Source of the DNA: Methanomicrobiales archaeon
GTDB lineage: Archaea > Halobacteriota > Methanomicrobia > Methanomicrobiales > JACTUA01
Length of the DNA stretch: 64,000 nucleotides
Assembly (NCBI GenBank): GCA_030019205.1
Contig: JASEFH010000003.1
Coordinates: 62,001-126,000 of the forward strand
Direction of reading: 5' to 3'
How positions within the stretch are numbered: the first letter of the stretch is position 1; every line of letters starts with the position of its first letter. The translations under genes were made by a program, and so were the position numbers. Under the pieces are notes generated by a model that saw only the letters and a program-made list of their open reading frames with translations, did not search any database and was not told the DNA's origin. Shown here one piece after another: positions 33,085 to 53,697 of the stretch.

Positions 33085-33915
33085 TTATTCCGGCTTCTTT
33101 CCGCTGATAAGGATGCTGGCGATGGACTCGCCGATCCCGCCGACCATCTCTTCCGGGATGCGCGGATCTCCGAGGATGGCCTGTGCCGTCGGATCGTTCT
33201 GCATGCAGTCGATCGACATGGGTGTCTCACCGAGGATGGTCACATCCTCGAATCCGGCATCTCTCACCCTGTCCACGTACTCCTCCTTCCCGATCGCCCC
33301 CGATATGCAGCCGACGTACGCGGCAGCCGATCGCAGGATCGCTTCCGGGAGCGGGCGTACGAGGGTGGTATCGGAGATCATCAGCCGACCGCCCGGTCTC
33401 AGCACGCGGAACGCCTCGCGGAAGACCTGGGATTTGTCGGGCGACAGGTTGATGACACAGTTGGAGATGATCACGTCCACGGAGTTGTCGGCGACCGGCA
33501 GGTGTTCGATCTCGCCGAGACGGAACTCAACGTTTGCGAATCCTCCCTTCCGTGCATTCTCCCGCGCCTTTGCAAGCATCTCCGGCGTCATGTCCACCCC
33601 GATCACCCGCCCCGCGGGACCCACCCGCCGGGCCGCCAGGAAGGCGTCGAACCCCGGGCCGGAACCCAGGTCCAGCACCGTCTCCCCCGGTTTGAGGGAA
33701 GCGAGCGCGACCGGGTTCCCGCACCCCAGGCCCAGGTTGGCCCCGGCCGGAACTCCCTTCAGATCCTCGTCCGCATAGCCGATCTTCCGGCTGATGGCAT
33801 CCGCGCTGTTCAAAGACCCGCAGCCGCATGTGCCGGGACCGCAGCAGGACTGCCGTCCCCGGGCTACCCTGGCGTAGCCCTCCCGCACCTTCTCTTTGAT
33901 CCGTTCGTCGGTCAT
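33085..33915 (-). CDS. arsM: Arsenite S-adenosylmethionine methyltransferase
   Basis: Methylates As(III) to methylated arsenicals in the cytosol. The 276-aa protein has a Rossmann AdoMet site (L-D-L-G-S-G-P-G near 81-88) and the three conserved arsenic cysteines Cys65, Cys153 and Cys203; the 50-residue spacing of the last two equals that of the characterised algal ArsM. An extra N-terminal Cys cluster (C24, C25, C30, C32) may also bind As(III). The ATG overlaps the stop of the upstream AbrB-like gene by 4 nt, so the two are co-translated. Confidence 0.95.
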
Positions 33916-34196
33916 CTGTTCGCCTCGTCTGACAGGACCCCGTTCACCATGGGTCCTACGACAGTCTTCACCGATTCGTTCAGCCGCTCGACCTTGAGCA
34001 GCATGATGCAGCAGACCTCGCCGTTCTTCTCCCAGCCGACCGCTGCGAGTTTCGTCCCGGCAGCGATTCCCGCCCGCGCCCGCAACTCTTTCGGGAGCAC
34101 CATCTGGCCCCGCTCGTCCACGCTCAGGATCGCTTCGAGCGTGCAGCGGCTCAGGGGCCCGGGCACCGGGCAGCAGGATTCTCCTGTCTCCTTCAT
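33912..34196 (-). CDS. AbrB-fold protein resembling HgcAB-associated HgcC
   Basis: A 94-residue protein. After an N-terminal C-C-P-V-P-G segment comes a SpoVT/AbrB swapped-hairpin domain ([19 protein letters not shown]), then W-E-K-N-G-E-V-C-C. This resembles the small protein annotated near hgcAB mercury-methylation genes; no hgcA or hgcB lies in this window. Here it is paired with arsM. The AbrB fold suggests DNA binding and the three cysteine pairs suggest metalloid sensing. Start 34196 fits a TATA-like TTATCATATG at about 34226-34235. Confidence 0.78.
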
Positions 34197-34236
34197 GGTC
34201 TTGCCATGTACCATGGGATGCGGCATATGATAAATT

Positions 34237-34263
34237 TTCTGAATATTCTGCATATTCTGAAAT
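34237..34263 (-). promoter_or_regulatory. Three tandem 9-bp repeats upstream of the AbrB-arsM operon
   Basis: On the plus strand the three units read TTCTGAATA, TTCTGCATA and TTCTGAAAT without gaps. They lie directly upstream of the TATA-like element for the minus-strand operon starting at 34196. Phased repeats in this position are likely a binding site for a regulator, possibly the AbrB-like protein itself or ArsR. Confidence 0.55.
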
Positions 34264-34345
34264 TGTGGAGTGCCGCGGGGCGGGATTACGGACGGGTAAA
34301 AATGCGGATGGATGCCGCGGTGGATAAAAAAACGGATGGATCCTT

Positions 34346-34711
34346 TCAGGGATGGTTCAGGAGCCACGCCCGGCCCGCATCCGTGATCCCGTAGATGATC
34401 CAGTTCCCCTGCTGCTCGCTCGCCACAAATCCCGCCTGCCGGAGCACACCGAGGTGGTAGGAGAGCTTGGAGTCGGCGATCTGCAGGATCTCCCTGATCA
34501 CGCAGACGCAGAGGGGCTGCGAGAGAAGTGCGTAGAGGATGGTCAGGCGGATGGGATCCGAGAGCGCACCAAATTTTTTCCCTTCGCGTATGAGTTCATC
34601 CCGCTTCGGGATTCTCTCTTTCAGCCCTTCAATGCCGCCCATTTCCTGGAGCCTCTCTTTGATGGGCTCCGGCAGACCGGCCCAGCACGCCTTTGTCTTC
34701 ACGGACATCAA
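34346..34711 (-). CDS. arsR: ArsR-family metalloid-responsive repressor
   Basis: A 121-residue winged-helix repressor. The DNA-binding region reads [13 protein letters not shown]. The sequence P-L-C-V-C-V-I-R-E near residues 66-74 is the As(III)/Sb(III) sensor (E-L-C-V-C-D in classical ArsR). It is divergent from the permease at 34902, and an operator-like palindrome covers its predicted transcription start. Its message should be leaderless, starting at ATG 34711 or 34708. Confidence 0.92.
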
Positions 34712-34901: not shown

Positions 34902-35990
34902 ATGGCTGATCCCATCAGCGGGGCGCTGCTCGCCGGGCTGGCCTCGGTCCTGGACTACCTCTCGGCGCACGTGCTCACCTGCCTGGTGCCGGCCTTCTTC
35001 ATCGCCGGGGCGATTGCGGCGTTTGTCAAGAAGGACGCGATCCTGAAGTACTTCAGCGCGGACACGAAGAAGTCCGTCTCCTACAGCATCGCCGCCGTCT
35101 CGGGGACAGTCCTGGCGGTATGCAGCTGTACGATTCTGCCCATCTTCGCGGGCATCCTCAAGAAGGGGAGCGGCATCGGTCCGGCGACCACCTTCCTCTT
35201 CTCGGGTCCGGCGATCAACATCCTCGCCATCATCTATACGGCGAGGGTCCTGGGGGCGGATCTCGGGCTTGCCCGGGCGGTCTCAGCCGTGCTCCTCTCG
35301 GTCCTCCTCGGGCTTGCCATGGCATTCCTCTTCCGGAGCTACGACGGGGAGGCGAAGAAGGCGCCGGTGGTGCCGGTGGGCGGTGCCGTCTGCGAGGAGC
35401 GGTCGAACCGGATCACGCTTCTGTTCTTCGCCCTGCTCGTCGGGATCCTGGTCGTCGGCGCCGCACAGATCGACTGGTTCATCAAGTTCCCCATTCTCTA
35501 CGCCCTGACGCTCGGCGTTGCGATCCTGCTCGTCTACTACTTCGAGCGGGACGAGGTGACCGAGTGGGGGCTGGAGACCTGGGACCTCACAAAAAGGATC
35601 TTCCCCATCCTGATCGCGGGAACGTTCGTCGTCGGGATCATTGCCTTCTTCCTGCCGCCGGAGACCTTCCGCCCCTTCCTCGGGGGCAACTCCATCATAT
35701 CGTGCTTCCTGGCATCGATCCTGGGTGCGTTCCTCTACATGCCCACGCTCCTGGAAGTGCCCATCATCGGGACGACGTTCGGCTACTCCGTCGGGGTCAT
35801 GGGAGCCGGCCCGGCGCTCGCGCTTCTCCTGGCCGGGCCGACGATCAGCCTGCCGAGCATGCTGGTGCTCTACCGGATCCTGGGCGGGCGGAAGACGGCT
35901 GCGTACGTGGTCCTCGTCGTGATCCTCTCCACGCTCGCCGGGGTCCTCTTCGGCAACGTGCAGGGATTCATTCCGGCAGGGTGGTGCTGA
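34902..35990 (+). CDS. Permease of the ArsP/DUF318 family
   Basis: A 362-residue membrane protein with about 10 helices. The first half carries A-V-C-S-C-T-I-L-P-I-F-A-G-I, the conserved cysteine pair of this permease family; the second half begins after a hydrophilic loop near residue 150. Relatives export trivalent organoarsenicals such as methylarsenite, which fits the nearby arsM. The ATG is preceded by GGAGGGCA. The leader from the predicted start at about 34768 is about 130 nt long. Confidence 0.88.
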   Translation: MADPISGALLAGLASVLDYLSAHVLTCLVPAFFIAGAIAAFVKKDAILKYFSADTKKSVSYSIAAVSGTVLAVCSCTILPIFAGILKKGSGIGPATTFLFSGPAINILAIIYTARVLGADLGLARAVSAVLLSVLLGLAMAFLFRSYDGEAKKAPVVPVGGAVCEERSNRITLLFFALLVGILVVGAAQIDWFIKFPILYALTLGVAILLVYYFERDEVTEWGLETWDLTKRIFPILIAGTFVVGIIAFFLPPETFRPFLGGNSIISCFLASILGAFLYMPTLLEVPIIGTTFGYSVGVMGAGPALALLLAGPTISLPSMLVLYRILGGRKTAAYVVLVVILSTLAGVLFGNVQGFIPAGWC

Positions 35991-35991
35991 G

Positions 35992-36255
35992 GTGGAGAAG
36001 AAGCCCTGCTGCGCCGCGGAGGCCCTCCGCCGGGTGAAGCCGCTCTCCGTGGACGGAAAGACCGTCGGGATCGCCTGGCTGGAGCCCATCATCGAGGAGG
36101 TTGCAGCTCTGGATCTCGGGGGAGATGAGCAGATCGTCGCGGAGCTGGTGAAGCGGGTGAAGATCTACAACTACATCCCGCGGAGCGCTGAACACGCTTA
36201 TGCGGCAGCAATTTATGAGGAGTATAAGAAGTATGTATCCCACGATGAGGAATAA
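35992..36255 (+). CDS. Small cysteine-pair protein of the metalloid cluster
   Basis: An 87-residue acidic protein with an N-terminal K-P-C-C pair and a C-terminal R-V-K-I-Y-N-Y-I-P helix. Similar small proteins accompany ArsP-type permeases in methanogens and are sometimes labelled NAC-type factors, a name I think is unsupported. The GTG start lies 1 nt after the permease stop, with GGTGG just upstream, so translation is coupled. It may carry As(III) to the permease; that is inference. Confidence 0.72.
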   Translation: MEKKPCCAAEALRRVKPLSVDGKTVGIAWLEPIIEEVAALDLGGDEQIVAELVKRVKIYNYIPRSAEHAYAAAIYEEYKKYVSHDEE

Positions 36256-36282: not shown

Positions 36283-36522
36283 ATGATGGTCACAATTGAG
36301 GTGCTGGGCACCGGATGCCCGAAGTGCAGGCGGACGATCAGGAACGTGGAGGAAGCGGTGAAAGAGCTCAAGATCCAGGCTGATATCCGGAAAGTGGACG
36401 ACATCACCGAGATCATGAGCCGCGGGGTGATGCTCACCCCCGCCGTCTTCATCGACGGCGAAGAGAAGGTGGTGGGCCGCGTGCCCTGCGTCGAGGAGCT
36501 CAAGGAGCTGCTGCAGGGGTAA
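36283..36522 (+). CDS. Small thioredoxin-family protein (C-P-K-C), copy 1
   Basis: A 79-residue mini-thioredoxin with active site G-C-P-K-C near residue 11 and the cis-proline loop M-L-T-P-A-V-F near 50. Such proteins reduce disulfides or bind metals, and here could regenerate ArsC or the DGC protein. GGGGAG precedes the ATG. A close copy lies at 42086 and the two share a 30-bp identical stretch. It is followed after 1 nt by a DGC-type gene, the same arrangement as copy 2. Confidence 0.88.
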   Translation: MMVTIEVLGTGCPKCRRTIRNVEEAVKELKIQADIRKVDDITEIMSRGVMLTPAVFIDGEEKVVGRVPCVEELKELLQG

Positions 36523-36523
36523 C

Positions 36524-36985
36524 ATGACAGAAACACCGACATGCTCGTGCGGAGCAGATGAACCGCGACGGATCGTCTTTCCCTGCGCCGGCCAGGCAAA
36601 TACGGGGCAGCTCTCGAACATCGCCGCGGTCCGGCTGACCGAGGAAGGGTTCGGTAGCATCGCCTGCGTCGCGCTGCTGGCGACCGGGGCCGAAGGGCTC
36701 GTGAAGAACGCGAAGAATGCCGACGAGGTGGTCGTGATCGACGGGTGCCCGGCGGTCTGTGCGAAGAAGATCGCGGAAGCGCAGGGCATCGTCCCGGCCC
36801 AGCACGTCATTGTCACCGAGTGCGGGATCGAGAAAGGGCCGTCCCGCTCCTATACGGAGGACGATATCGAGACGGTCGTCGCGGCGGTGTGGCGCGGCGA
36901 GGGGAGGCGGAGAAGCACCAAAAAGAGAGAGCCGTCCGCTGGGCCTTCCAGCGGCTGCGGGTGCGGCTGCGACGGGCCCTGTTGA
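36524..36985 (+). CDS. DGC-type putative zinc-binding protein, copy 1
   Basis: A 153-residue protein with the DGC family pattern: a strand ending C-A-G-Q-A-N-T-G-Q, then V-I-D-G-C-P-A-V-C-A near residue 70, and V-T-E-C-G-I near 100. The N-terminus adds C-S-C-G and the C-terminus a tail with G-C-G-C-G-C. The many cysteines suggest soft-metal or metalloid binding, but no activity is known for the family. Two relatives are at 37810 and 42327. Confidence 0.82.
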   Translation: MTETPTCSCGADEPRRIVFPCAGQANTGQLSNIAAVRLTEEGFGSIACVALLATGAEGLVKNAKNADEVVVIDGCPAVCAKKIAEAQGIVPAQHVIVTECGIEKGPSRSYTEDDIETVVAAVWRGEGRRRSTKKREPSAGPSSGCGCGCDGPC

Positions 36986-37033
36986 AGATCTTTCGGCGCA
37001 ATGATGTAGCCAATCAGAAAAAAGGATGGTTTG

Positions 37034-37807
37034 ATGACGTCAATCGGGTTTATCGGGGGAGGACGGGTCGCCCGGATCCTCCTGGGTGGATGGCAGCACG
37101 CCGGCAGAATGCCGGAGCGTGTCGTGGTGAGCGATCCGAGTGCAGATTCCCTGCGGGAGTTGCAGAGCCGGTTCCCCGGGATTCACGCGATACCGGGTGC
37201 AAATCCAGATGCGGCATATCAGGATATCGTGCTGCTCGCCGTACATCCGCCCGTGGCACCAGCCATCCTCGCCGAGATCGTGCCGGTGCTGCAACCCGGC
37301 ACGATCGTGGTCTCGCTGATGCCGAAGGTCTCGATCGCCCGGATCGCGTCGATGCTCGGCGGGTTCCAGCGGATCGTACGGATGATCCCGAACGCTGCAT
37401 CGGTCGTCGGCAGGGGATACAATCCAATCGCCTTCTCCCCGGCGCTCTCGGGGCAGGAACGCAGCAGGATCGTCGCGCTCCTCGCGCCCCTGGGCGACTG
37501 CCCGGAAGTGCCCGAGGAGCACCTCGAGGCGTATGCCGTGCTGACCGCGATGGGGCCGACCTACCTCTGGTTCCAGTTCGATGCGCTGACGAAGCTGGGA
37601 GTCGCGTTCGGGCTTCCGGCGAGCGCGGCGGCCGAGGGCGTGCTGAAGATGGCCGAGGGGGCGATCGCGACGATGGCAGGATCGGGACTCACGCCTGCCG
37701 GGGTGATGGATCTCGTGCCGGTAAAACCCCTGGGCGAGGACGAGGCGGTCATCCGGGACTGCTACGAGAGACGGCTGCGGGGCATGTACGCGATGCTGAA
37801 GGGGTAG
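37034..37807 (+). CDS. Pyrroline-5-carboxylate reductase-like protein
   Basis: A 257-residue NAD(P)-binding protein related to ProC. It opens I-G-F-I-G-G-G-R-V-A, has L-L-A-V-H-P-P where ProC has A-V-K-P, and carries a C-terminal helical dimerisation domain with A-M-G-P-T-Y in place of G-S-G-P-A-Y. The changed motifs and its place between two DGC genes argue against a plain role in proline synthesis. It might reduce a metalloid-linked or thiol-linked intermediate. AAGGATGG lies 4 nt before the ATG. Confidence 0.8.
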   Translation: MTSIGFIGGGRVARILLGGWQHAGRMPERVVVSDPSADSLRELQSRFPGIHAIPGANPDAAYQDIVLLAVHPPVAPAILAEIVPVLQPGTIVVSLMPKVSIARIASMLGGFQRIVRMIPNAASVVGRGYNPIAFSPALSGQERSRIVALLAPLGDCPEVPEEHLEAYAVLTAMGPTYLWFQFDALTKLGVAFGLPASAAAEGVLKMAEGAIATMAGSGLTPAGVMDLVPVKPLGEDEAVIRDCYERRLRGMYAMLKG

Positions 37808-37809
37808 CC

Positions 37810-38163
37810 GTGAGACTGATCGTCACCTGTTCGGGGATCTCCAACACCGGCAAGCTGACGACGCAGGTCGCCACGGCGCTCATGCGGTCCCGGCCCGGGG
37901 CCTTCGTCTGGGTGAAGGCACAGAAACCCCCCGGTGAGATCCAGGCGTGCGCCGGGGACGCCGAGGAGCTCGTGGTGATCGACGGCTGTTCGGACTGCTG
38001 TGCAACGAAGAAGATCCGGGCTGCCGGGGTTGGGCTCCCCTGCCGCTGCCACGTCGTGGCAACCGAGTGCGGCGTGGTGAAGAACGGCATGGCCGATGTG
38101 CAGTACGGGGAGATCGAACAGGTGATGCGGGAGGTCGCCCGCATCCTGGGAGGCCTCCGCTAG
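37810..38163 (+). CDS. DGC-type putative zinc-binding protein, copy 2
   Basis: A 117-residue protein with V-T-C-S-G-I-S-N-T-G-K at the start, V-V-I-D-G-C-S-D-C-C-A near residue 55 and V-A-T-E-C-G-V near 92, the same three blocks as the other two DGC proteins but without Cys-rich tails. The GTG start is 2 nt after the upstream stop, implying translational coupling. Confidence 0.8.
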   Translation: MRLIVTCSGISNTGKLTTQVATALMRSRPGAFVWVKAQKPPGEIQACAGDAEELVVIDGCSDCCATKKIRAAGVGLPCRCHVVATECGVVKNGMADVQYGEIEQVMREVARILGGLR

Positions 38164-38185
38164 GAGCGTACGGAGAGTGCAAAGT

Positions 38186-38872
38186 GTGAAGATCTGTATT
38201 TTAAGCGACGGCAAGTTCGGGGACCGGGCCTATGAGGTCATCGGTGAGAAGTTCCCCGTGGAGTTCATCCGGGTGCCGTACTTCGCCTCCCCCGTGGTGG
38301 ACGACCTGGACCTGGACATCCCGAAGTGCGACCTCTACATCTCGTATGCCCGGCACCCGGATGTTGCCCGCGCCATCGCGGAGAAGGGGGTGCCCACCAT
38401 CCTCGGGATCAGTTTCGGGCCGGGATTCCTGCGGCAGGTGCGGGAAGCGAACGAGAACGTGGTCGCACCGCTGACCATGTGCTCTCTCGAAGACAACACC
38501 TGGATGGACGCGGTGAACGAGTACACCCGGGTCTTCGGCAGACCGCGCTTCGAGGTGGAGATCGAGGACGGGCGGTTCAAAATGGTCCGGGTGCTGCGGG
38601 GATCCCCCTGCGGCTCGACAGTTGCCGCTGCCGCCGAACTCGTCGGCCAGCCGGTCACGCCGGAGGCGATCCGCCACTTCGGGCTGCGGATCTGCCACTT
38701 CTGCCGGGCCCCGAGGTTCGGGAAGACCTGCGACAAGGAGGTGGCCGGCGTCCTCCAGATGCGGGAACTGCTGGATGCGATCCGCCGTTCGTCCGAGGCT
38801 GACCAGAACCAGCTGCGGGCGTTTGCCGACGAAGTCGAGGAGATCTATAAGCAAAAAGTGGAGCATCTGTGA
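38186..38872 (+). CDS. DUF166 protein
   Basis: A 228-residue archaeal protein of the DUF166 family, once annotated as a putative thymidylate synthase without proof. It has L-S-D-G-K-F-G-D-R near residue 5, a R-G-S-P-C-G-S-T block and a C-terminal H-F-C-R-A-P-R-F-G-K-T-C pattern whose cysteines could hold a metal. GTG 38186 has GGAG at a good distance; GTG 38177 is an alternative. Its place here suggests a metalloid or one-carbon role, unproven. Confidence 0.83.
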   Translation: MKICILSDGKFGDRAYEVIGEKFPVEFIRVPYFASPVVDDLDLDIPKCDLYISYARHPDVARAIAEKGVPTILGISFGPGFLRQVREANENVVAPLTMCSLEDNTWMDAVNEYTRVFGRPRFEVEIEDGRFKMVRVLRGSPCGSTVAAAAELVGQPVTPEAIRHFGLRICHFCRAPRFGKTCDKEVAGVLQMRELLDAIRRSSEADQNQLRAFADEVEEIYKQKVEHL

Positions 38873-38906
38873 GCTTTCAATACGTTCCAGAAGAGAGGGA
38901 GTTAGA

Positions 38907-39296
38907 ATGAACGATCAGAAGCTGCTGGTCATCGAGTGGAAGCACCTCGATGTGGAAGGCGAGACCTGCGAACGGTGTGCGGGCACGATCCAGGAGATCC
39001 GCCGCGCCGTCGAGGGGTTGCAGAAAGAAGGGAAACTGGAGGGGATCACGGTCCGCATCCGGGATACCCCGCTCTCCGCAGACCGGATCGGCGAGTCGAA
39101 CGCGATCCTGATCAACGGGGTTCCGATCGAGGCGATCGTGGCCGCGGAGGTCGCCCCCACGCCCTGCCCCTCCTGCTCGACTCTGACGGGGCAGGAGAGC
39201 TGCTGCCGGGCTCTGGATGTGGGCGGCACCCGGTACGAGCAGGTGCCGGCGGATCTCATCCGCTCCGCTGTGCTCAGGATGCTCGCGTATCTTTAG
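38907..39296 (+). CDS. DUF2703 protein
   Basis: A 129-residue protein with the DUF2703 signature W-K-H-L-D-V-E-G-E-T-C-E-R-C near residue 11, a central I-L-I-N-G-V-P-I-E strand as in thioredoxin-like folds, and a second cluster C-P-S-C ... C-C-R. Probably thioredoxin-like and metal- or metalloid-binding. GGGAG precedes the ATG by 6 nt. It sits just upstream of acr3. Confidence 0.83.
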   Translation: MNDQKLLVIEWKHLDVEGETCERCAGTIQEIRRAVEGLQKEGKLEGITVRIRDTPLSADRIGESNAILINGVPIEAIVAAEVAPTPCPSCSTLTGQESCCRALDVGGTRYEQVPADLIRSAVLRMLAYL

Positions 39297-39326: not shown

Positions 39327-40403
39327 ATGGTAAAAGAACGGCAACTCTCATTCTTTGAGAAGTACCTGACACTCTGGGTGGGCCTCTGCATCATCGGCGG
39401 CATCCTCCTCGGGAGGCTGGCCCCCGGCGTCGCTACTGCGCTCGACGCCCTCTCGATTTACCAGGTCTCGATCCCGATAGCGATCGCCCTCTTCTTCATG
39501 ATGTACCCGATCATGGTGAAGATCGACTTTGCCGAGGTGATCCGGGCGGCAAGGACCCCGCGGCCGGTGGGGCTCACGCTCTTCCTCAACTGGGCGATCA
39601 AGCCCTTCACGATGTACCTGATCGCCTCGTTCTTCCTGGGATACCTCTTTGTCGGCTTCATCCCGGGCACAGAGATCCTGCCGAATGGCGTGGAGGTGGA
39701 GCTCTGGCGGAGCTACGTCGCCGGCTGCATCCTCCTCGGCATCGCCCCCTGCACCGCCATGGTGCTGATGTGGAGCTACCTGGCCCGGGGCAACGACGGC
39801 CTGACGCTCGTGATGGTCGCGATCAACTCCTTAACGATGCTCGTGCTCTACGCACCGCTCGGCGGCTTCCTGCTCGGGGTGAACGCAATGCCCATCCCCT
39901 GGGAGACGATCCTGCTCTCCGTGGGGATCTACGTCGCCCTCCCGTTAGTGGCCGGCTACTACTCCCGGAAGTGGGCCATCCGGAGGAAGGGGATGCCCTG
40001 GTTCGAGAGCCGCTTCCTCCCCGTGCTCACCCCGGTGAGCATCGCGGCCCTCCTCGGTACGCTTGTCCTCCTCTTCTCCTTCAAAGGGGACGTCATCGTG
40101 GCGAACCCGCTCACCATCCTCTGGATCGCGATCCCCCTCTTCATCCAGACGGTGCTGATCTTCACCCTCGGCTACATCGCCGCCTGGCAGCTGCGGTTCG
40201 ACTACCGGGATGCCGCGCCGGCGTCGATGATCGGGGCCTCCAACCACTTCGAGGTGGCGATCGCGACGGCCACGATCCTCTTCGGGCTCCAGTCAGGGGC
40301 AGCGCTCGCAACGGTGGTCGGTGTCCTGATCGAGGTGCCGGTGATGCTGATGCTGGTCAAGATCTGTTTACGAACCCAGAACATATTCGGGGGTGCCGCA
40401 TGA
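39327..40403 (+). CDS. acr3: Acr3-type arsenite efflux permease
   Basis: Exports As(III) across the cytoplasmic membrane. The 358-aa protein has ten predicted helices, the conserved cysteine in [11 protein letters not shown]-x-I-K-P-F near residue 88 and E-V-A-I-A-T-A near 310, all typical of Acr3. Its last four bases overlap the start of the stress-protein gene (ATGA). Confidence 0.93.
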
Positions 40404-41263
40404 GAGGAACCATTCTCGTACCTCTCGAGATGGCGGAGAGCGCCGAGAAGATCCTCTCCGCCGTGGAGGAACTGGCGCGGGCGGGCATCGAGAAGGTCGC
40501 CCTCCTGCACGTGATGAGCGTCCGGCATACCCTCGCGGATCCCGCGATCCGCCGGTATGACGAAGCAAAAATGAAGGAGTGGAAGGATCGGCTCCTCGCC
40601 TGCGGGGTGAAGGCGGTCACGACCGGGGTGGTGGACGGCTTCCCTGCATACGAGATCCTGGAGCGGTCGAAAGACCCGGACGTTTCTCTCGTCGTCATGG
40701 GATCCCGAGGGAGCACGCAGCTCTCCCGGCTCCTCCTCGGGAGCACCACGGAAGAGGTGCTCCACTCGGTGCGGAAGCCCCTGTTCGTTGTGCGCCTCCA
40801 GATCCTGGAGGCCGAGGGTGGCCTGGTCTGCCGCCTCTCGACGGATCGGCTCTTCAGGCGCATCCTGTACGCGACAGACTTCTCCAAAGACGCCCTGCTC
40901 TGTATCCCCTGCCTCTCCTGGCTGGCGGCAGCCCGCCCGGAGGAGCTGATCGTCGCTCACATCCAGGACACCCGGCGCCTGGGCCACGTCACGGAGGAGC
41001 AGATGGCAGAGTTCAACCGACGGGATACCGAACGGCTGGAAGCGCTCAAAGAGCAGTTCGAGCGTGCAGGGTTCGGGAAGGTGACCACGGTGCTCCGCAC
41101 GGGAAATGCGATTGCCGAACTCCTGGAGCTCGCCCGCACCCGCGAGCCCACCCTGATCGTGATGGGCGCGAAGGGGCGCACGGGCGTCCGCGAGATGCTG
41201 CTCGGAGGTGTGACCGAGACGATCGTCCACCAGGCACCGGTCCACGTGCTGGTGATGCGGTAA
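40400..41263 (+). CDS. Tandem universal stress protein, copy 1
   Basis: A 287-residue cytosolic protein with two UspA domains. Each ends in a G-S-R-G-S or G-A-K-G-R-T-G loop that binds ATP phosphate in related proteins; domain 2 starts near residue 150 (I-L-Y-A-T-D-F-S). Translationally coupled to acr3. The two-domain gene at 47021 is a close relative: both share segments such as A-H-I-Q-D-T-R and E-F-N-R-R-D. Confidence 0.88.
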
Positions 41264-41377: not shown

Positions 41378-41895
41378 GTGCCAGAGGACACACTTTCTGG
41401 CCCGGACACTGTTCGTGAATGGCAAAAGGATGAACCGTCAAGAAGGAAAGAACTGTCGTTTCACAAGGTGCTTTACACGACGGATTTCTCTGCAGACGCA
41501 GGGGGGCGATCCCCTATCGCAGGGGCCGAAGAGATGGTTGTACCCCGCATCATCGAAGTCTTCGGGTTTGCATCCATCATGGAGGGATCTCGGAGATCGG
41601 GTCTGGATCCGAAGACCTTCAAGGAGGATGCTCTCGAGCCGATGGCCCGAGTGGAGCGGAAGAGGGCCGGAGAAGTCCAAGGGCGGATCCAGCGGGAAGG
41701 GCCGAAGGCGGAGGTGAGAATCGAGTTCGGGAAATCCCGCGGCATCATCGCCCGTGTCGCAGAAGAAGAGGAGGATGCGGGTATCATCGTGATAGGTGCG
41801 CAGGGAAAGGGGGGAAGATTTGGGCAGCCATCCTCGGGAGCGTCTCCGAAGGAACCCTCCGCCGTGCGAAGGTGCCTGCATTCGTGGTGCGATGA
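41378..41895 (+). pseudogene. Frameshifted single-domain universal stress protein
   Basis: The frame shows F-H-K-V-L-Y-T-T-D-F-S (from about 41460), a shortened middle and I-I-V-I-G-A-Q-G-K-G-G, then loses the family pattern. In another frame from about 41828 the expected end follows: A-I-L-G-S-V-S-E-G-T ... V-P-A-F-V-V-R and stop at 41893-41895. A one-base change near 41815-41825 therefore breaks the ATP-binding loop. Extra loss near residue 40 of the domain is likely. Confidence 0.72.
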
Positions 41896-42085
41896 ACCCC
41901 CTGTGAGGAATCGTGGTGTCGTGCAGGGATGGTTCACATCCGTGGATGGAACATGCAGGGGTGTTCCTCGGTAGGGAGGGATACGATCCGGACTGCGCCG
42001 GCAGGGGGGTTGATCCCTTTCGGGAAGTATGCATGCGAAGCACCGGCAGCGACGCTGGTGAGGAAATGGAAGGATGTGATCGTGT

Positions 42086-42322
42086 TTGAGAAAGATTGAG
42101 ATACTGGGCACCGGATGCACGAAGTGCAGACAGACGATCAGGAACGTGGAGGAAGCGGTGAAGGACCTGGGGATCCAGGCGGAGATCGTGAAAGTCGATG
42201 ACCTCACCGAGATCCTGGACCGAGGGGTGATGCTGACGCCGGCCCTCTTCGTCGACGGCGAGGCGAAGGTGGTGGGCCGTGTGGCGGATGTAAAAGAGAT
42301 AAAAGAGATCCTGAAGGGGTGA
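42086..42322 (+). CDS. Small thioredoxin-family protein (C-T-K-C), copy 2
   Basis: A 78-residue mini-thioredoxin with G-C-T-K-C and the M-L-T-P-A-L-F cis-proline loop. It is highly similar to copy 1 at 36283 in both protein and DNA, indicating a recent duplication. The start is probably TTG at 42086, with GGAAGG upstream. A DGC-type gene follows after 4 nt. Confidence 0.85.
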   Translation: MRKIEILGTGCTKCRQTIRNVEEAVKDLGIQAEIVKVDDLTEILDRGVMLTPALFVDGEAKVVGRVADVKEIKEILKG

Positions 42323-42326
42323 AAAG

Positions 42327-42719
42327 ATGAAAGAAGATGCATCGTGCGTGTGCGGCGGACCGGGCGTCTCCGAGGGTGGGAAGAGACGGGTGCTCTTTTC
42401 GTGCGCGGGGGCCTCCAGCACCGGGCAGGTCTCGAACTCTGCGGCAGTGCAGCTGGCGCTTGAAGGCTACGGTATCCTGGCATGCACGGCGGGGCTTGCA
42501 GTGCAGGCGCCCTCCACGCTCCAGAAAGTAGAAACGGCCGAAGAACTCGTTGCCATCGATGGCTGCGCGGTTGCCTGCGCCCGGAAGATCCTGGAGAGGG
42601 AGGGGCTTACCGCAGACGTCCACCTTGTTGTTACGGATCTGGGAGTGAAGAAGACTGGCGACCCGATCCCGGGCGAGGACGAGATCGAGGTTGTCGTGGC
42701 GGAGGCCTGGAAACGGTAG
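42327..42719 (+). CDS. DGC-type putative zinc-binding protein, copy 3
   Basis: A 130-residue relative of the proteins at 36524 and 37810: C-A-G-A-S-S-T-G-Q near residue 28, A-I-D-G-C-A-V-A-C-A near 72, and V-T-D-L-G-V in place of V-T-E-C-G, so one cysteine is lost. The N-terminal C-V-C-G pair is kept. GGGGTGAAAAG precedes the ATG. Confidence 0.82.
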   Translation: MKEDASCVCGGPGVSEGGKRRVLFSCAGASSTGQVSNSAAVQLALEGYGILACTAGLAVQAPSTLQKVETAEELVAIDGCAVACARKILEREGLTADVHLVVTDLGVKKTGDPIPGEDEIEVVVAEAWKR

Positions 42720-42748
42720 AAGGATGCACAGCGGTACGTGATCGTAAA

Positions 42749-43528
42749 ATGACTGACATTACAGCAGAAGAAGTGCGAAGGCTGGCCTCCGTGATGAAGG
42801 ACGCCCTCGGACTCTCCGGATCCCCGATCGGAGTGCGGTTCCTGAAGACCGATACGGAGGTCCCGGGTGCGGAGCCGGCGAAAGGTCACCGCTACTGCCA
42901 GGCGCTGATGCGGGCCCGCCACGGGGACCACGTGGTGGTGACGGAGAAGACGATTTCGTGCCCTGCGGCGGCACGGGCTTTTGGGTTCCGGCCGCTCCCG
43001 GAACCCCTCCGGAGCGGCAAGGGATTGATGGGGTTCGGCATCACTGCAGAAGAAGCGGTGGGGAAGACGATGTTCGAGCGGATGCCGGTCCTCGAACCGG
43101 GGCAGGTCGTCCAGCTGGATGTCTTCCCGCTCGATAGGGCGGAGGAGGTGCCGGATCTGGTTGTCGTGGAGGACGAGGCCGAGAAGCTGATGTGGATCGT
43201 CCTCTCCTACATGCACGCCACGGGCGGGGAGCGGGTCGCGGGATCCACGGCAGTCCTCCAGGCGACCTGCGTGGACTCCACCGTTGTGCCGTACCTGGAG
43301 AACCGCCTGAATTTCGGTCTCGGCTGCTACGGCTGCCGGGATGCGACGGATATCGGGCCGGGAGAGACGGTCCTGGGTTTCCCGGCGGACTTCCTCCCGG
43401 CAATCGTCGAGCACCTCGAATACCTGAAGAAGAAAGCGCTCCCGCATTCCCGCGAGACGCACGCTCTCGCTGCCCTGAAAAAGCATATGGCCAGGGACCA
43501 CCCCCGGGAGTCCTGCTCCACATTCTGA
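42749..43528 (+). CDS. DUF169 protein
   Basis: A 259-residue member of the archaeal/bacterial DUF169 family, function unknown. Conserved blocks seen: P-I-G-V-R-F near residue 27, Y-C-Q-A-L-M-R-A near 50, E-K-T-I-S-C-P-A-A near 70, and the C-terminal G-L-G-C-Y-G-C-R-D near 195. The repeated cysteines again suggest a metal or metalloid site. It lies between the Trx-DGC pair and arsC in one run of plus-strand genes. Confidence 0.83.
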   Translation: MTDITAEEVRRLASVMKDALGLSGSPIGVRFLKTDTEVPGAEPAKGHRYCQALMRARHGDHVVVTEKTISCPAAARAFGFRPLPEPLRSGKGLMGFGITAEEAVGKTMFERMPVLEPGQVVQLDVFPLDRAEEVPDLVVVEDEAEKLMWIVLSYMHATGGERVAGSTAVLQATCVDSTVVPYLENRLNFGLGCYGCRDATDIGPGETVLGFPADFLPAIVEHLEYLKKKALPHSRETHALAALKKHMARDHPRESCSTF

Positions 43529-43542
43529 GAGGGAGGGGTAGC

Positions 43543-43965
43543 ATGAAAAAGAAAGTACTCTTCATCTGCACGCACAACGCCGCCCGCTCCCAGATGGCGG
43601 AGGGCTACCTGCGGGCCCGCTACGGCGACCGCTACGAGGCCTCTAGCGCCGGGACGCAGCCGACGCGATTGAGCCCCCGCGCGGTCCGCGTGATGCAGGA
43701 GATCGGCATCGACATCTCCGGGCAGCGCTCCAAGCCGCTCGAGGAGTTCTTCGATAGGGAGGTGGACCTCGCCGTCACGATCTGCGACGAGGCCACGGCG
43801 GCCTGCCCCTTCTGCCCGGGCGCAAAAGAAGTCGTCCACCAGGCGTTTGCGGACCCCGAACACCTGACCGGGACGGAGGAGGAGGTCCTCGCCGGCTACC
43901 GGCGCGTGCGCGACGGGATCGCCCGCTGGATCGATGCCACCTTCGGGGGCGTCAAGAAAGCCTGA
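43543..43965 (+). CDS. arsC: Arsenate reductase, thioredoxin-coupled (LMW-PTP fold)
   Basis: Reduces As(V) to As(III) for export by Acr3. The 140-aa protein has the P-loop C9-T-H-N-A-A-R15 and the relay cysteines Cys81 and Cys88, matching Cys10/Cys82/Cys89 of the staphylococcal enzyme, and a D-P general acid near 104. The thioredoxins in the operon are likely reductants. GGGAGGGG precedes the ATG. Confidence 0.95.
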   Translation: MKKKVLFICTHNAARSQMAEGYLRARYGDRYEASSAGTQPTRLSPRAVRVMQEIGIDISGQRSKPLEEFFDREVDLAVTICDEATAACPFCPGAKEVVHQAFADPEHLTGTEEEVLAGYRRVRDGIARWIDATFGGVKKA

Positions 43966-48130: not shown

Positions 48131-48463
48131 ATGGCCGAAGGCGAGATTGAACGGATAAAGCAGGCCGAAGCGGAAGCCCTCGATCGGATCCGGGAAGCCC
48201 GGGAACGGGCTCAGGCGACGCTCGACCGGGCACGCGAAGAAGCGGGTGCGATCCGCCGTCGAAGGCAGGAGGAGTCCCGGGCGGAGGTGCGGCGGGTGAT
48301 CGAAGGGTCCCGTCGGGCAGCGGAGGCGCAGGCGGACCGGATGCGCCGTGAGGCGGAGGAGCAGGCCACCGCGATTCGCCGTGCTGCAGAGCCGAGATTT
48401 CAACAGGCGCTGGCGCATGTCCTTCAGCGGGTGACAGGGGATTCCGATGTTCCGCCCCGCTAG
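48131..48463 (+). CDS. atpH: A-type ATP synthase subunit H
   Basis: A 110-residue, highly charged coiled coil rich in Glu, Arg and Ala, typical of the H (G-like) subunit that pairs with E to form the peripheral stalk of the A1Ao ATPase. It is the first gene of the operon, the usual place in methanogens. The end overlaps subunit I by 17 nt. Confidence 0.88.
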   Translation: MAEGEIERIKQAEAEALDRIREARERAQATLDRAREEAGAIRRRRQEESRAEVRRVIEGSRRAAEAQADRMRREAEEQATAIRRAAEPRFQQALAHVLQRVTGDSDVPPR

Positions 48464-50435
48464 GATGCTGTCGGGAACCATCGGCGTCCACGCTGCGTAT
48501 CGGGATGCGGTCCTCCAGGCCCTCCACGAGGGCGGGATCCTGGAGATCCACGCGGTGTCCGCCGGGCAGGAGGACGGGGCAGCGCTCCTGAAGCCGGGAC
48601 AGAAGGCGCCGTTCACGACGGTCTGCGCCACGTACCGGCTGCGACTCGACCGCATCCTGGGGGCTCTCGCCGAAACCAGGCCTTCCGAACCGTCTCTCTT
48701 TGGCCAGCTGACGGTCCGCGAGCCGGCCCGGAAGATCGCGGTTCCTGTCCGTCCCTTACCCGGGATCCTGGACGATGTCGAGGAGATCGTTCGCAGGGGG
48801 GAGCGGGCCCTCGAGATCCAGAAGGAGGTTGCCCAGCTTCGGGATACGCGGGCCTCTCTGGAAAGAGACGTGCACGCCGCCGGGCTCCTCGTCCCCTTCG
48901 GTGTTAGGCCGGAACACCTGGGCAGTTCCGCCTACCTCTCCATCTCCGCCGGCCTTGTACCTGCGGAAGAGTCCGGGGCACTCATCCGGGAGCTGGAAAC
49001 TGTCGGGGGGGACGAATGGATCGCCCGCACTCTCGAAACGCCGGAGGGGACGACGGTCGTCGTAGCCACGCTACGGGAGCACGCGGAGACCGTGGACGGA
49101 GTCCTCCGCCGACACTCCTTCGAACCGATCCTTCTAGCGGGGATGAAGGGATCGGCCCGGGAGGTGGTCGAGCAGCTGACGGCAGAGCGGAATACCGTTG
49201 AGGATAGGATCCGAGATCTCCTTGGGGAGCTCCGGGATCTCGCCGCTGCACTGGAACCGCTCCTCATCGCCTACCGCGAAGAGATGGAGGTGCTCGCCGA
49301 AGAGGGGGAGGCGGCCGCACTCCTGGCAGGGACGGAGGAGACCGCCGTCGTCCAGGGTTTTCTCCGGGCAACGGACCGCGATCGCCTGGAGAATCTGGTG
49401 GAGCAGGCGGCGGAGGGGCATGCGTTCTGCCGCTTCGCTCCCCCTGCAGCGGGTGAGAACCCGGCACCGGTCGCCTATGAGAATCCCGCATGGGCCCGCC
49501 CCTTCGAGATGTTCACGACCCTCTTCTCCCGCCCCCGCTACCACGAGATCGACCCGACGGTGATCATCGCCCCGATCATCGTGCTCTACTTCGGGTTCAT
49601 GCTGGGGGATGCCGCCTATGGAGCGATCCTCACCCTCGCCGCACTCCTCCTCTATCGCGGGGCCGGCACGGTCAGCCCGACGATCCGCGACCTGGCGCTC
49701 GTCCTGGCCGCATGCGGGGTCTCCGGCACTATCTTCGGCATCCTGCAGGGCAGCTACTTCGGGGACGCCCTCCCCCGGTTCTTCGGAATCCGGCCCCCGT
49801 TCGTGCTCGTCGATCCCCTGCAGCAGCCGGTGACGATCCTCGTCGTCGCCCTTGCCATCGGCATCCTGCAGATCAACTTCGGGCTGCTGCTCGCCGTCCA
49901 CGAGAATGTGCAGGCGCACCGCTACCGCGAGGCCTTCTTCGAGCAGGGGGTCTGGTTCCTGTTGCAGCCAGCGGCCGCGGTGCTCATGCTCGACTTCTTC
50001 GCATGGCAGCCGATTCCCGACGCCTGGATCCTGCCCGCCGCTGCCGCTGCCGCCGCATCCATTGCCGCCATCTTCCTGCACCGCGGACCGCTCGGCTTCT
50101 TCGGCCTCACGGGTTTTCTCGGGGACTGGCTCTCTTACACGCGGCTGCTCGCGCTCGATCTCGCGACGGCGGGGATCATCCTGACCATCAATATCCTGGC
50201 GGCGATGATCGCCGCCATCCACCCGCTCCTTCTGGTCGCTGCCGTGATCTTCTGGATCGTCGCGAATCTGCTCAACCTGGTCCTCCAGACCCTCGGGGGC
50301 ATGATCCATGCGCTTCGCCTCCAGTATGTCGAGTTTTTCGGGAAGTTCTACCGCGGCGGCGGCCGCAGATTCGCGCCGTTCTCGGCGGACCGCATCTACA
50401 CGATCCGTGCAGACCGGGGGGAGCGGCATGAGTGA
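48447..50435 (+). CDS. atpI: A-type ATP synthase subunit I (a-subunit homologue)
   Basis: A 662-residue membrane stator. The N-terminal half (to about 345) is cytosolic with coiled-coil stretches that hold the peripheral stalks; the C-terminal half has about eight helices forming the ion half-channels, with the conserved Y-F-G-F-M-L-G-D-A-A-Y-G near 380 and a W-L-S-Y-T-R-L-L-A-L-D segment near 560 containing the essential arginine. ATG 48465, 1 nt after the H stop, is an alternative start. Confidence 0.93.
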   Translation: MFRPARMLSGTIGVHAAYRDAVLQALHEGGILEIHAVSAGQEDGAALLKPGQKAPFTTVCATYRLRLDRILGALAETRPSEPSLFGQLTVREPARKIAVPVRPLPGILDDVEEIVRRGERALEIQKEVAQLRDTRASLERDVHAAGLLVPFGVRPEHLGSSAYLSISAGLVPAEESGALIRELETVGGDEWIARTLETPEGTTVVVATLREHAETVDGVLRRHSFEPILLAGMKGSAREVVEQLTAERNTVEDRIRDLLGELRDLAAALEPLLIAYREEMEVLAEEGEAAALLAGTEETAVVQGFLRATDRDRLENLVEQAAEGHAFCRFAPPAAGENPAPVAYENPAWARPFEMFTTLFSRPRYHEIDPTVIIAPIIVLYFGFMLGDAAYGAILTLAALLLYRGAGTVSPTIRDLALVLAACGVSGTIFGILQGSYFGDALPRFFGIRPPFVLVDPLQQPVTILVVALAIGILQINFGLLLAVHENVQAHRYREAFFEQGVWFLLQPAAAVLMLDFFAWQPIPDAWILPAAAAAAASIAAIFLHRGPLGFFGLTGFLGDWLSYTRLLALDLATAGIILTINILAAMIAAIHPLLLVAAVIFWIVANLLNLVLQTLGGMIHALRLQYVEFFGKFYRGGGRRFAPFSADRIYTIRADRGERHE

Positions 50436-51867
50436 AGTCGGCACCGCGCTGGCCCTGGGCGGCGCCGGCCTGGCAGCCGGGCTCTCGGCGATCGGGGCCG
50501 GCATCGGGGTAGGGATCGCCGGTGCCGCAGGATCCGGCGTGAGTGCGAACCGCCCGGAGAAATTCGGGTCATCGCTCCTGTTCCAGGCGATCCCGCAGAC
50601 CCAGGGGATCTACGGGCTCCTGGTCGCCATCCTGATCCTGGTCTCCACGGGCATCCTGGGCGGCGAGGCGGCGGACGTGAGCGTGCCGATGGGGCTGGCC
50701 GCCATCGGTGCCGGGCTCGCGGTGGGGCTCGCCGGGCTCTCGGCGATCGGACAGGGGATCACGGCGGCGGCCGGGATCGGCGCATCGGCACGCGACGATG
50801 AATCCGTTGGACGCAGCCTGGTCTTCTCGGTCATTCCCGAAACCCAGGCGATCTACGGCCTCCTCGTCGCCGTGCTGATCATGGCCTTCACGGGCATCCT
50901 CACCCGGGACGTCCAGACGACCTCTGCCACGGGGCTGGCCGCCATCGGTGCCGGGCTCGCCGTGGGATTCGCCGGACTCTCGGCGATCGGCCAGGGGATC
51001 ACGGCCTCTGCTGGAGCGACGGCCTCGGCGGCGAGGCGGGAGTCGTTCGGGAAAAGCCTGATATTCTCCGTCGTCCCGGAGACCCAGGCGATCTACGGCC
51101 TCCTGGTCGCGGTCCTGATCATGGCCTTTACCGGTATCCTGACCCAGGATGTGACCATCTCGATTGCGGCGGGCCTCGCCGCGGTTGGCGCCGGGCTTGC
51201 CGTCGGCATCGCCGGGCTCTCGGCCATAGGTCAGGGGATCACCGCCGCGTCGGGCATCGCAGCCACCACCGAGAACGACGAGATGTTCGGAAAGAGCCTG
51301 GTCTTCTCGGTGATCCCGGAGACCCAGGCGATCTACGGCCTCCTCGTTGCCGTGCTGGTCATGGCGTTCTCCGGCATTCTCACGAGGGATGTCACTATCA
51401 TGGCCGCCTCGGGATTTGCGGCGATCGGTGCCGGGCTTGCCGTGGGGCTCGCCGGGCTCTCGGCGATCGGCCAGGGGATCACGGCATCCGAAGGGATCGC
51501 CGCTACGGCCGAGAAGGAGGGAATGTTCGGGAGGAGCGTTATCTTCTCGGTGATCCCGGAGACGCAGGCGATCTACGGCCTGCTGGTGGCCGTCCTGATC
51601 ATGGCGTTTACCGGTATCCTGACGCGCGATGTGACCATCACAGCCGTGGTCGGATTTGCTGCGATCGCCGCCGGGCTTGCCGTGGGGTTTGCGGGGCTCT
51701 CGGCGATCGGGCAGGGGATCACCGCGGCTGCCGGAATCGAGGCGACGTCGAGGTCGGAGGAGGCGATGGGCAGGAGCCTGATCTTCGCGGTCATCGCCGA
51801 GACCTTCGCGATCTTCGGGCTCCTGATCGCAATTTTAATCCTCTTCGGTATCGGGGTTTTCGGCTGA
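50428..51867 (+). CDS. atpK: A-type ATP synthase rotor subunit K with six fused hairpins
   Basis: The ion-binding rotor ring subunit. Normal c subunits have one or two hairpins; this 479-residue protein has six (12 helices), the last five repeating every 80 residues. The carboxylate in P-E-T-Q occurs at Glu138, 218, 298 and 378, and as A-E-T-F at Glu458; hairpin 1 has P-Q-T-Q (Gln57), so it lacks the carboxylate. S-A-I-G-Q-G in hairpins 2-6 supplies a Gln that, with Glu, Thr and Gln, resembles Na+ ligands of V-type rings. GGGGGAG precedes the ATG, which overlaps the I gene. Confidence 0.95.
   Translation: MSEVGTALALGGAGLAAGLSAIGAGIGVGIAGAAGSGVSANRPEKFGSSLLFQAIPQTQGIYGLLVAILILVSTGILGGEAADVSVPMGLAAIGAGLAVGLAGLSAIGQGITAAAGIGASARDDESVGRSLVFSVIPETQAIYGLLVAVLIMAFTGILTRDVQTTSATGLAAIGAGLAVGFAGLSAIGQGITASAGATASAARRESFGKSLIFSVVPETQAIYGLLVAVLIMAFTGILTQDVTISIAAGLAAVGAGLAVGIAGLSAIGQGITAASGIAATTENDEMFGKSLVFSVIPETQAIYGLLVAVLVMAFSGILTRDVTIMAASGFAAIGAGLAVGLAGLSAIGQGITASEGIAATAEKEGMFGRSVIFSVIPETQAIYGLLVAVLIMAFTGILTRDVTITAVVGFAAIAAGLAVGFAGLSAIGQGITAAAGIEATSRSEEAMGRSLIFAVIAETFAIFGLLIAILILFGIGVFG
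50691..51867 (+). repeat. Five 240-bp tandem repeats inside atpK
   Basis: Segments starting near 50691, 50931, 51171, 51411 and 51651 are spaced exactly 240 bp and encode hairpins 2 to 6. DNA identity stays high over the G-L-A-V-G-x-A-G-L-S-A-I-G-Q-G and V-I-P-E-T-Q-A-I-Y-G blocks, so recent duplication or gene conversion is likely. The array could vary in copy number between strains. Confidence 0.85.
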
Positions 51868-51880
51868 AAGGAGGGAGCAG

Positions 51881-52480
51881 ATGAGTGTGGAGAAGATCAT
51901 CGGGAAGATCCAGGCCGACGCTGCGTCCCGTGCGGCGGCGGTGGAGCGGGAGGCGGCAGCCGAAGCCGAGGCGATCCGCCGGCGCGAGAGGGAGGCGGCA
52001 GAGAACGAATACGCCCGAATGGTGGAGGGCGGGCGCCGGGAGGCCAGGGCCACGGCAGACCGCATCCTCTCCGCCGCAGCCGTGGATGCCCGCCGCCGGA
52101 TCGGGGAGGAACGCTCGGCGATAGTCCAGGAATGTCTCGATGCGGCCCGCGCCAGGTTCCCCGAGATCGTCGCCTCCCCGGCGTATCCGGCCCTGCTCCT
52201 ACGCCTCATCGGGGACGGGATCCGGCACCTCGCGGAGGCGGAGGCCGTGATCCTGGTGCATCCGCGGGACCTCCCGCTCGCCCGCTCGATCGCCGCCAGC
52301 ATCCCCGGAACGGCCGCCGAAGTGGTTCCGGCAGCGGACGGATCCATCTCGAGCGGCGGAGCCATCATCCGCTCCCGGAACGGCAAACGGGAGGTCAACC
52401 AGACCTTCGAAGTGCGGTTGCAGCGGGAGCGGCCGACCCTGATCGCCGAAGTATCCCGGATTCTCTTCGACCGCCCATGA
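51881..52480 (+). CDS. atpE: A-type ATP synthase subunit E
   Basis: A 199-residue peripheral-stalk subunit: a long N-terminal charged helix (to about 100) and a C-terminal globular domain with G-G-A-I-I-R-S-R-N-G-K near 165, the family's most conserved block. AAGGAGGGAG precedes the ATG. The stop overlaps the start of subunit C (ATGA). Confidence 0.93.
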   Translation: MSVEKIIGKIQADAASRAAAVEREAAAEAEAIRRREREAAENEYARMVEGGRREARATADRILSAAAVDARRRIGEERSAIVQECLDAARARFPEIVASPAYPALLLRLIGDGIRHLAEAEAVILVHPRDLPLARSIAASIPGTAAEVVPAADGSISSGGAIIRSRNGKREVNQTFEVRLQRERPTLIAEVSRILFDRP

Positions 52481-53697
52481 TCCCCACAGCACCACCCACT
52501 GCGGACACCGCGCTTACGTTCATCGACGAGCTCGGCGGCTTCCTGGGGCTGCCGTCGGGCGAGGTGATCGTGCTCCTCCTGCTCGTTGCCGTCTCGCTTG
52601 CGCTGATTGCGGCCCTGCTCACCGGGGCGCTTCTCCCGGTGCTCTCGATCGCCCGGTTCGCCTATCCCATCGCCCATGTGAAGGCAACCGGAACGCCGTT
52701 CGTGGAGAGCGGGATCGTGGACTCGCTGACGGGATCGCGTCACCCGGACGAGGTGCTGAACGCCGTCCAGCGGCAGGGCGTCGACCTGACGGGGATCCAG
52801 CCGTCCGACCCCGTCTCTCTCCGGGCAGGGATCAGGGCGTGGCAGCAGTCGGAGTTCTTCGCCCTGCAGGCGAGCGTGCCCCGGGGGATCCAGCCGTTCT
52901 TCCGGGCGCTAGCCCTGGAGCCGGAGATCGGGGCCCTCAAGGGTGTGATCGTCCGGAAACACCGGGGGATTCCTCCCGACGACATTGAGACGGCGGTCCC
53001 TCCGGTCGGAACAATCGACCCCGCCCTCCTGCGGCAGCTGGCAGCGGCCCCGACGATGGAAGACCTGGTCGAGCGGCTCGGGAGGACGCCCTATGGCGGG
53101 GTGCTGGAAGAGGCGCTCCCCCGGTACCGCGCGGAGAACCAGGTATTCCCGCTCACCGTCGCGCTGGACCGCTACTTCTTCCGGGAACTCTCGCTCTCGG
53201 TGCAGCGCAGCGACCGCAGCCTCCGCGCCACAATCGGCGCCTACGCCGGCACGCGCATCGATATCGCCAATCTCCTGGCGGTCCTCTCGGGAAAGGCCTC
53301 CGGGCACTGCCGGGAACGCATCCAGGAATACCTGGTCCCCGGCGGCCGGGCGCTCCCGCTGGATCTCCTGGAGCACATGGCAGAGGCGCCCACCCTGCTC
53401 GAATCGATGGCGTTCCTCGATCGCACGGCGTACTGGGAGGTCCTCGCACCGGAGGTCCGCGGGTTCGAGGCGGACCCGGATGTCCGCGGGATTCTCGCCG
53501 CCCTGGACCGGTTCTTCCTGGAGTATGCCGCATCTCTCGGCGCCACCGATCCGCTGCAGGCGGGACCGATCCTGGAATTCTTGACTGCGCTGGAGTACGA
53601 GGCGAGGAACCTGCACGTCGTGCTGACCGGCGTGGCCCGGGGCATGCCGGCCGGGCGCATGCAACCGCTTCTCGTCACGCGGGGGGACCGCCTGTGA
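52477..53697 (+). CDS. atpC: A-type ATP synthase subunit C with N-terminal membrane anchor
   Basis: The C subunit caps the rotor and links ring K to the central stalk. The 406-residue protein is about 50 residues longer than usual: residues about 29-55 are a strongly hydrophobic helix absent from characterised C subunits, preceded by 28 polar residues. The remainder shows the helical repeats of AtpC, with the F-L-x-x-L-E-Y-E-A-R-N-L motif near the end. It overlaps E and F by 4 nt each. Confidence 0.9.
   Translation: MIPTAPPTADTALTFIDELGGFLGLPSGEVIVLLLLVAVSLALIAALLTGALLPVLSIARFAYPIAHVKATGTPFVESGIVDSLTGSRHPDEVLNAVQRQGVDLTGIQPSDPVSLRAGIRAWQQSEFFALQASVPRGIQPFFRALALEPEIGALKGVIVRKHRGIPPDDIETAVPPVGTIDPALLRQLAAAPTMEDLVERLGRTPYGGVLEEALPRYRAENQVFPLTVALDRYFFRELSLSVQRSDRSLRATIGAYAGTRIDIANLLAVLSGKASGHCRERIQEYLVPGGRALPLDLLEHMAEAPTLLESMAFLDRTAYWEVLAPEVRGFEADPDVRGILAALDRFFLEYAASLGATDPLQAGPILEFLTALEYEARNLHVVLTGVARGMPAGRMQPLLVTRGDRL

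Follow-up and report, generated by a model that had tools for sequence, protein, structure and literature searches.

A conserved accessory gene set in archaeal arsenic-resistance islands

The window analysed here is a stretch of 64,000 nucleotides from a Methanomicrobiales archaeon of the phylum Halobacteriota (GenBank assembly GCA_030019205.1, contig JASEFH010000003.1, positions 62,001 to 126,000 of the forward strand). Six of its genes, encoding a thioredoxin, two DGC proteins, a relative of pyrroline-5-carboxylate reductase (hereafter the P5CR-like protein), a DUF166 protein and a DUF2703 protein, lie between the genes for an ArsP-type permease and the arsenite exporter Acr3. An earlier, sequence-only reading had proposed them as an uncharacterised module for metalloid reduction, thiolation or delivery to export. 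As described below, these genes belong to an accessory set that is real and conserved among the arsenic islands of archaea, and the module very probably forms the accessory portion of an arsenic-resistance operon under ArsR control.

Layout of the locus

The genes form a run of near-touching plus-strand frames that starts at the permease and ends with Acr3; the ArsR gene in front is divergent:

34346-34711, minus strand: ArsR-family repressor with an LCVC motif, divergent to the operon (Pfam HTH_5)
34902-35990, plus strand: ArsP-type permease with a CSC motif (PF03773 ArsP_1, 237 bits)
35992-36255, plus strand: small CC protein of 87 amino acids, N-terminal KPCCAAEA, of no family, conserved between permease and thioredoxin
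36283-36522, plus strand: ArsE/MTH895-family thioredoxin with CPKC (TIGR00412, 104 bits, cut-off 62; PDB 1ilo, MTH895, 2.7e-16)
36524-36985, plus strand: DGC protein 1 with CxG, DGCxxxC and a C-terminal GCGCGC tail (PF08859, 118.5 bits)
37034-37807, plus strand: P5CR-like (ProC-like) NAD(P)-binding protein (PF03807 and PF14748, above cut-off)
37810-38163, plus strand: DGC protein 2 with DGCSDCC (PF08859, 76.7 bits)
38177-38872, plus strand: DUF166 protein of an ars-linked subfamily with CHFCRAPRFGKTC (PF02593, 113.5 bits)
38907-39296, plus strand: DUF2703 protein with TCERC, TPCxSC and CR (PF10865, 116 bits)
39327-40403, plus strand: Acr3 arsenite exporter (TIGR00832, 400 bits, cut-off 283)

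From the thioredoxin through Acr3, the coordinates of the open reading frames leave gaps of 1, 48, 2, 13, 34 and 30 nucleotides, and all six family names are backed by Pfam (Thioredoxin_3, DGC, F420_oxidored with P5CR_dimer, DGC, DUF166 and DUF2703). Both agree with the proposed picture of six tightly spaced genes between permease and exporter, including the distance of 2 nucleotides between the P5CR-like gene and the second DGC gene. While these six had been listed correctly, a seventh gene, that of the small CC protein, starts 1 nucleotide past the permease stop and had been overlooked.

Further arsenic genes flank the operon, among them a second unit behind it (42086-43965) with an ArsE-type thioredoxin, DGC, DUF169 and ArsC:

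33085-33915, minus strand: ArsM arsenite methyltransferase, in the neighbouring divergent unit (NCBIfam NF008823, 350 bits, cut-off 263)
40400-41263, plus strand: universal stress protein overlapping the Acr3 stop and counted as the last member of the operon (PF00582, two domains)
42086-42322, plus strand: second ArsE-family thioredoxin (TIGR00412, 100.6 bits, cut-off 62)
42327-42719, plus strand: DGC protein 3 (PF08859, 102.8 bits)
42749-43528, plus strand: DUF169 protein, which adjoins ArsC in related islands (PF02596, 178.7 bits)
43543-43965, plus strand: ArsC-like arsenate reductase of the low-molecular-weight phosphatase type (clearly similar to the TIGR02691 family, at 118.8 bits under the equivalog cut-off of 174.3)

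By the measure of ars operons of the ArsR-Acr3-ArsC-ArsM type, the Acr3 and ArsM models are both passed. Behind the universal stress protein gene, a frame at 41378-41974 resembles a degraded universal stress protein, and between ArsR and ArsM a minus-strand frame at 33912-34367 looks AbrB-like by eye; neither has a Pfam match at 1e-5, the latter with its long start. At 48447-53694 lie genes for an archaeal A-type ATP synthase (subunit I, multi-copy subunit C and C/AC39).

Recurrence beside arsenic-resistance genes

The genes for DGC, DUF2703, Acr3, the P5CR-like protein and the DUF166 subfamily were located across a set of 150 genomes from this order, the window's own locus included, and were counted as near when they lay within 10 kb of each other. 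All 12 genes of the P5CR-like subfamily are near DGC, 9 are near DUF2703 and 8 near acr3; the survey genomes are relatives and the counts therefore not independent, but ordinary ProC relatives from the same genomes, a control with equal relatedness, are near DGC in only 1 of 57 cases. With this control, the gene arrangement is far beyond chance. The DUF166 subfamily has both acr3 and DGC within 10 kb in seven of eight cases; the remaining member is a fragment, some 23 kb off on the same contig. DUF2703 is near a DGC gene among the matches listed in 60 of 84 cases. DGC itself is near acr3 in 88 of the 150 matches listed, 105 of which are in acr3-bearing genomes.

Maps of 20 islands (up to 20 kb) display a recurring order of a divergent ArsR, an ArsP permease, the small CC protein, an ArsE-type thioredoxin and DGC. 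The part after DGC varies, and may contain a second thioredoxin-DGC pair, Acr3, a universal stress protein, DUF2703, DUF169, ArsC or DGC of a second type. Both the universal stress protein after Acr3 and the divergent ArsR before the permease recur in related islands. In the 30 best-scoring DGC loci of the order, a same-strand ArsE-family thioredoxin is always found directly upstream; 29 of these loci have the permease and 26 the small protein. Of 20 DGC loci sampled from ten families outside the order, 16 have an ArsE-type thioredoxin nearby, 15 of these together with an ArsP-type permease; three others have neither thioredoxin nor permease, and one has acr3 but no thioredoxin. The ArsP-ArsE-DGC core is phylum-wide, occurring in most of the sampled families outside the order.

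Such a survey of DGC, DUF2703 and DUF166 neighbourhoods had been suggested as a check, with absence of co-occurrence as the outcome that would speak against the module. What is found is recurrent co-occurrence with arsR, arsP, acr3, arsC and arsM, and this recurrence strongly supports assigning the six genes to metalloid handling.

Cysteine-rich proteins and the P5CR-like clade

The sequence-only reading ascribed cysteine pairs, and no known arsenic function, to almost all of the six proteins. Conserved cysteines are present in DGC, DUF166 and DUF2703, but none is conserved in the P5CR-like protein. The denial of a known arsenic link is wrong for the thioredoxin, which NCBIfam places in the ArsE family, and also for DUF2703, which occurs in the ars cluster of Rhodococcus aetherivorans BCP1 and is reported there to be induced by As(V) under 10-fold (PMC6514093).

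In the DGC alignment, G74, C75 and C79 are invariant and C21 is present in more than 90% of rows. In about 14 genomes, judged by shared frame lengths, DGC and DUF2703 are encoded in one reading frame; translation confirmed the fusion in one locus (L031), and domain searches confirmed it for 14 loci from 12 genomes. The cysteine-rich GCGCGC tail of DGC protein 1 in the window corresponds to the linker in these fusions. Likewise, a Syntrophaceae contig (L081) encodes a fusion of the small CC protein with an ArsE-like thioredoxin. Because of these fusions, the partners are suggested to act together. DUF2703, classed as thioredoxin-like (PMC3091736), conserves TCERC, TPCxSC and CR in its alignment, and the DUF166 subfamily conserves C51, C102 and the stretch SPCGST...CHFCRAPRFGKTCDK. 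When 61 genomes of the order were searched for the DUF166 family, only two matches came up, which did not suffice for a deep alignment.

The small CC protein matches no Pfam or NCBIfam family, and its PCC is present in more than 90% of alignment rows. Paralogues on the chromosome do not have the PCC part, their matches starting at model position 12; one such paralogue without the CC start is found elsewhere in the window's genome (G000:C35:1603-1800, L109), beside a cupin-looking frame. Searches among solved structures gave no convincing match for the small protein, DGC, DUF2703 or DUF166. The AlphaFold model of DGC protein 1 is confident over residues 15-125 (block pLDDT mostly above 90) and has no significant match in the PDB (best E 0.017, TM-score at most 0.47), and that of DUF166 (82 pLDDT) gives weak, Rossmann-like matches.

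The P5CR-like protein contains the NAD(P)-binding and P5CR dimerisation domains (PF03807 at 62 bits and PF14748 at 31 bits, both above cut-off) and scores 122.4 bits against the ProC equivalog TIGR00112, under the cut-off of 196.75. The statement that it lacks typical ProC motifs is correct for the substrate-binding part, where nearly the whole clade has AMGPTYxWF in place of SxGPA and PVKPL in place of GGxT of ProC; the Rossmann motif GFIGGGR, the NAD(P)-binding GxGGGR, is retained. In a tree the protein belongs to a clade separate from ProC with 100/100 support, the long branches between both groups showing distinctness and not rooting. Members in the order are 45-54% identical to the window protein, and among 295 sampled genomes of the phylum the subfamily was found in this order only. 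A genome scan with the protein gave only four bacterial contigs, and a plasmid search found no relatives, either of this protein or of DUF166. The bacterial contigs are metagenome bins with uncertain taxon labels. One, assigned to Syntrophaceae (L081), has the order Acr3, P5CR-like and small protein-thioredoxin fusion; the second (L082) has an ArsP-type permease, the P5CR-like gene and an ArsE-type thioredoxin; the third, assigned to Planctomycetota (L083), has the P5CR-like gene, two thioredoxin-domain proteins, ArsF (72.7 bits, cut-off 60) and ArsG (230 bits, cut-off 200); and the fourth (L084) has ArsE, a P5CR-like frame broken in the contig, a thioredoxin and, further on, a DsbD-like protein. 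Beside the P5CR-like gene, L083:597-2036 encodes a protein with a thioredoxin domain and a weak match to the organomercurial lyase MerB (29 bits, cut-off 200). Since the bacterial members sit among archaeal ones in the tree, gene transfer between archaea and bacteria is suggested for this clade.

That this protein is simply the ordinary P5C reductase of the cell, placed in the island by accident, is very improbable. Its gene is indeed the sole match to the ProC model in the window's genome, where no ordinary ProC was found. However, among the 12 genomes that carry the P5CR-like gene, 6 encode ordinary ProC as well, and therefore the protein is not simply a ProC substitute; many genomes of the order have neither; and its neighbours are ars genes in bacteria too. 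With the changed substrate motifs and the separate clade, the candidate was rejected, and the protein seems to be a previously unassigned ProC relative recruited for arsenic handling.

Interpretation and comparison with known arsenic systems

Because they recur beside arsenic-resistance genes in many microbes, the six genes most likely help to bind, reduce or hand over arsenic. The gene families, operon-like layout, recurrence and conserved cysteines come from the sequences; from here on, protein roles are inferred. ArsE would supply ArsC and the cysteine proteins with electrons from thiols. DGC, with three near-invariant cysteines, and DUF2703, with TCERC, TPCxSC and a further cysteine, may bind trivalent arsenic or methylarsenite through thiolates and pass it on to Acr3 or ArsP, by analogy with the transfer from ArsD to ArsA. 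Acr3 would export arsenite, and ArsP methylarsenite produced by ArsM; for the permease, which matches the ArsP domain and has the conserved C(S/T)C motif named for ArsP (PMC4435449), organoarsenical export is a prediction only. The P5CR-like protein could have been recruited from ProC for a hydride transfer involving some small substrate of the pathway. Taken as a whole, this thiol-redox relay with a carrier serving ArsC, Acr3 and ArsP stands about evenly between right and wrong.

Several observations weigh against an arsenic-specific relay. Only a minority of islands have DUF166 and the P5CR-like protein, which are for that reason regarded as optional additions, and the latter, having no conserved cysteine, fits badly into a pure thiol relay. 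DGC also occurs away from arsenic genes, at plasmid loci with nitric oxide-stress or U32 genes, and a plasmid search found plasmid-borne DGC mostly outside an arsenic context. On two bacterial plasmids (L088 and L089), the setting differs in having U32 peptidases, SCP2, hemerythrin or nitric oxide-stress genes beside DGC. AnvM of Pseudomonas aeruginosa resembles the DGC proteins here in the DGC motif and in its many cysteines, one of them highly redox-sensitive. It differs in being a regulator of anaerobic virulence, for which zinc binding could not be shown, and the available text of the report does not mention arsenic (PMC6650552). No relevant report on DGC and arsenic was found in an open-access library.

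A rival explanation is a general thiol and soft-metal homeostasis module (for zinc, copper, mercury or selenium) that is merely often beside ars genes. In its favour are the annotation of DGC as a putative zinc-binding protein, a weak similarity between the permease and the SO_0444 Cu/Zn and SaoE efflux models, and a distant relationship between DUF166 and the (seleno)protein DfsP. However, all three models scored far under their cut-offs (SO_0444 84 bits against 300, SaoE 88 against 325, DfsP model NF041372 77.5 against 200), and the recurring partners are arsR, acr3, arsC and arsM, so that this explanation is rather improbable. Somewhat less unlikely, but still doubtful, is an NAD(P)H-dependent conversion of organoarsenicals like that reported for ArsEF, in which the P5CR-like protein would be the hydride donor enzyme and ArsP would export the product. 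The thioredoxin belongs to the ArsE family, the P5CR-like gene accompanies ArsF and ArsG in the Planctomycetota contig and touches an ArsE-type thioredoxin gene in L082 and L084, and the island holds both ArsM and an ArsP-type permease. On the other side, no window protein scanned matches ArsF or ArsG, the natural substrate of ArsEF-type chemistry is not established, and the presence of Acr3 and ArsC shows that the island also deals with inorganic arsenic. One could further imagine that the P5CR-like clade forms, with ArsE, DGC and DUF2703, an undescribed NAD(P)H-driven enzymatic pathway which modifies some arsenical, such as a methylated or thiolated form, ahead of its export and which archaea and bacteria share through gene transfer; this is speculative and, in our estimate, improbable.

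Neighbourhood counts connect arsenic resistance with an apparently recruited ProC relative and with four families that had no assigned function (DGC, DUF2703, the DUF166 subfamily and the small CC protein), which supplies concrete gene sets for testing. Methylated and thiolated arsenic forms and disappears in paddy soil and other anoxic settings, so that the soluble proteins working with ArsP and Acr3 in such places are of practical interest.

The components are partly known, their combination was not found described, and the P5CR-like enzyme clade is newly recognised. The P5CR-like protein shares with ProC the fold and domain order, the Rossmann GxGGG and the dimerisation domain (PDB matches to PYCR1 at 1.7e-21), and differs in its substrate motif, its score under the equivalog cut-off, its separate clade and its ars neighbourhood. 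The Rhodococcus cluster is similar in having DUF2703 with CXXC near arsC and acr3, while DGC, DUF166 and a P5CR-like gene are not reported in the available text (PMC6514093).

Another related system is ArsEFG, which Chen, Zhang and Rosen are said to have linked in 2019 to roxarsone and nitarsone resistance (as cited in PMC9144182). The island shares with it two ArsE-family thioredoxins and an organoarsenical-type permease, and the P5CR-like family stands beside ArsF-ArsG in one bacterial contig. It differs in that the permease is of the ArsP type, not the DsbD-like ArsG, and in the additional DGC, DUF2703, DUF166 and P5CR-like proteins. ArsF (NF040494) and ArsG (NF040495) have no match among the window proteins scanned, and therefore the module is not an ArsEFG operon; equating DGC with ArsF and the permease with ArsG was likewise rejected by these NCBIfam models. 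In a proteobacterial unit, for example on a plasmid of Citrobacter amalonaticus Y19 (L098), the ArsP_1 permease, ArsE thioredoxin and DUF2703 have the same order as in the archaeal islands, with a rhodanese in place of DGC and without the small CC protein. Because this sulfurtransferase stands at the place of DGC, a thiol- or sulfur-carrying role of DGC would fit, as an argument from position only.

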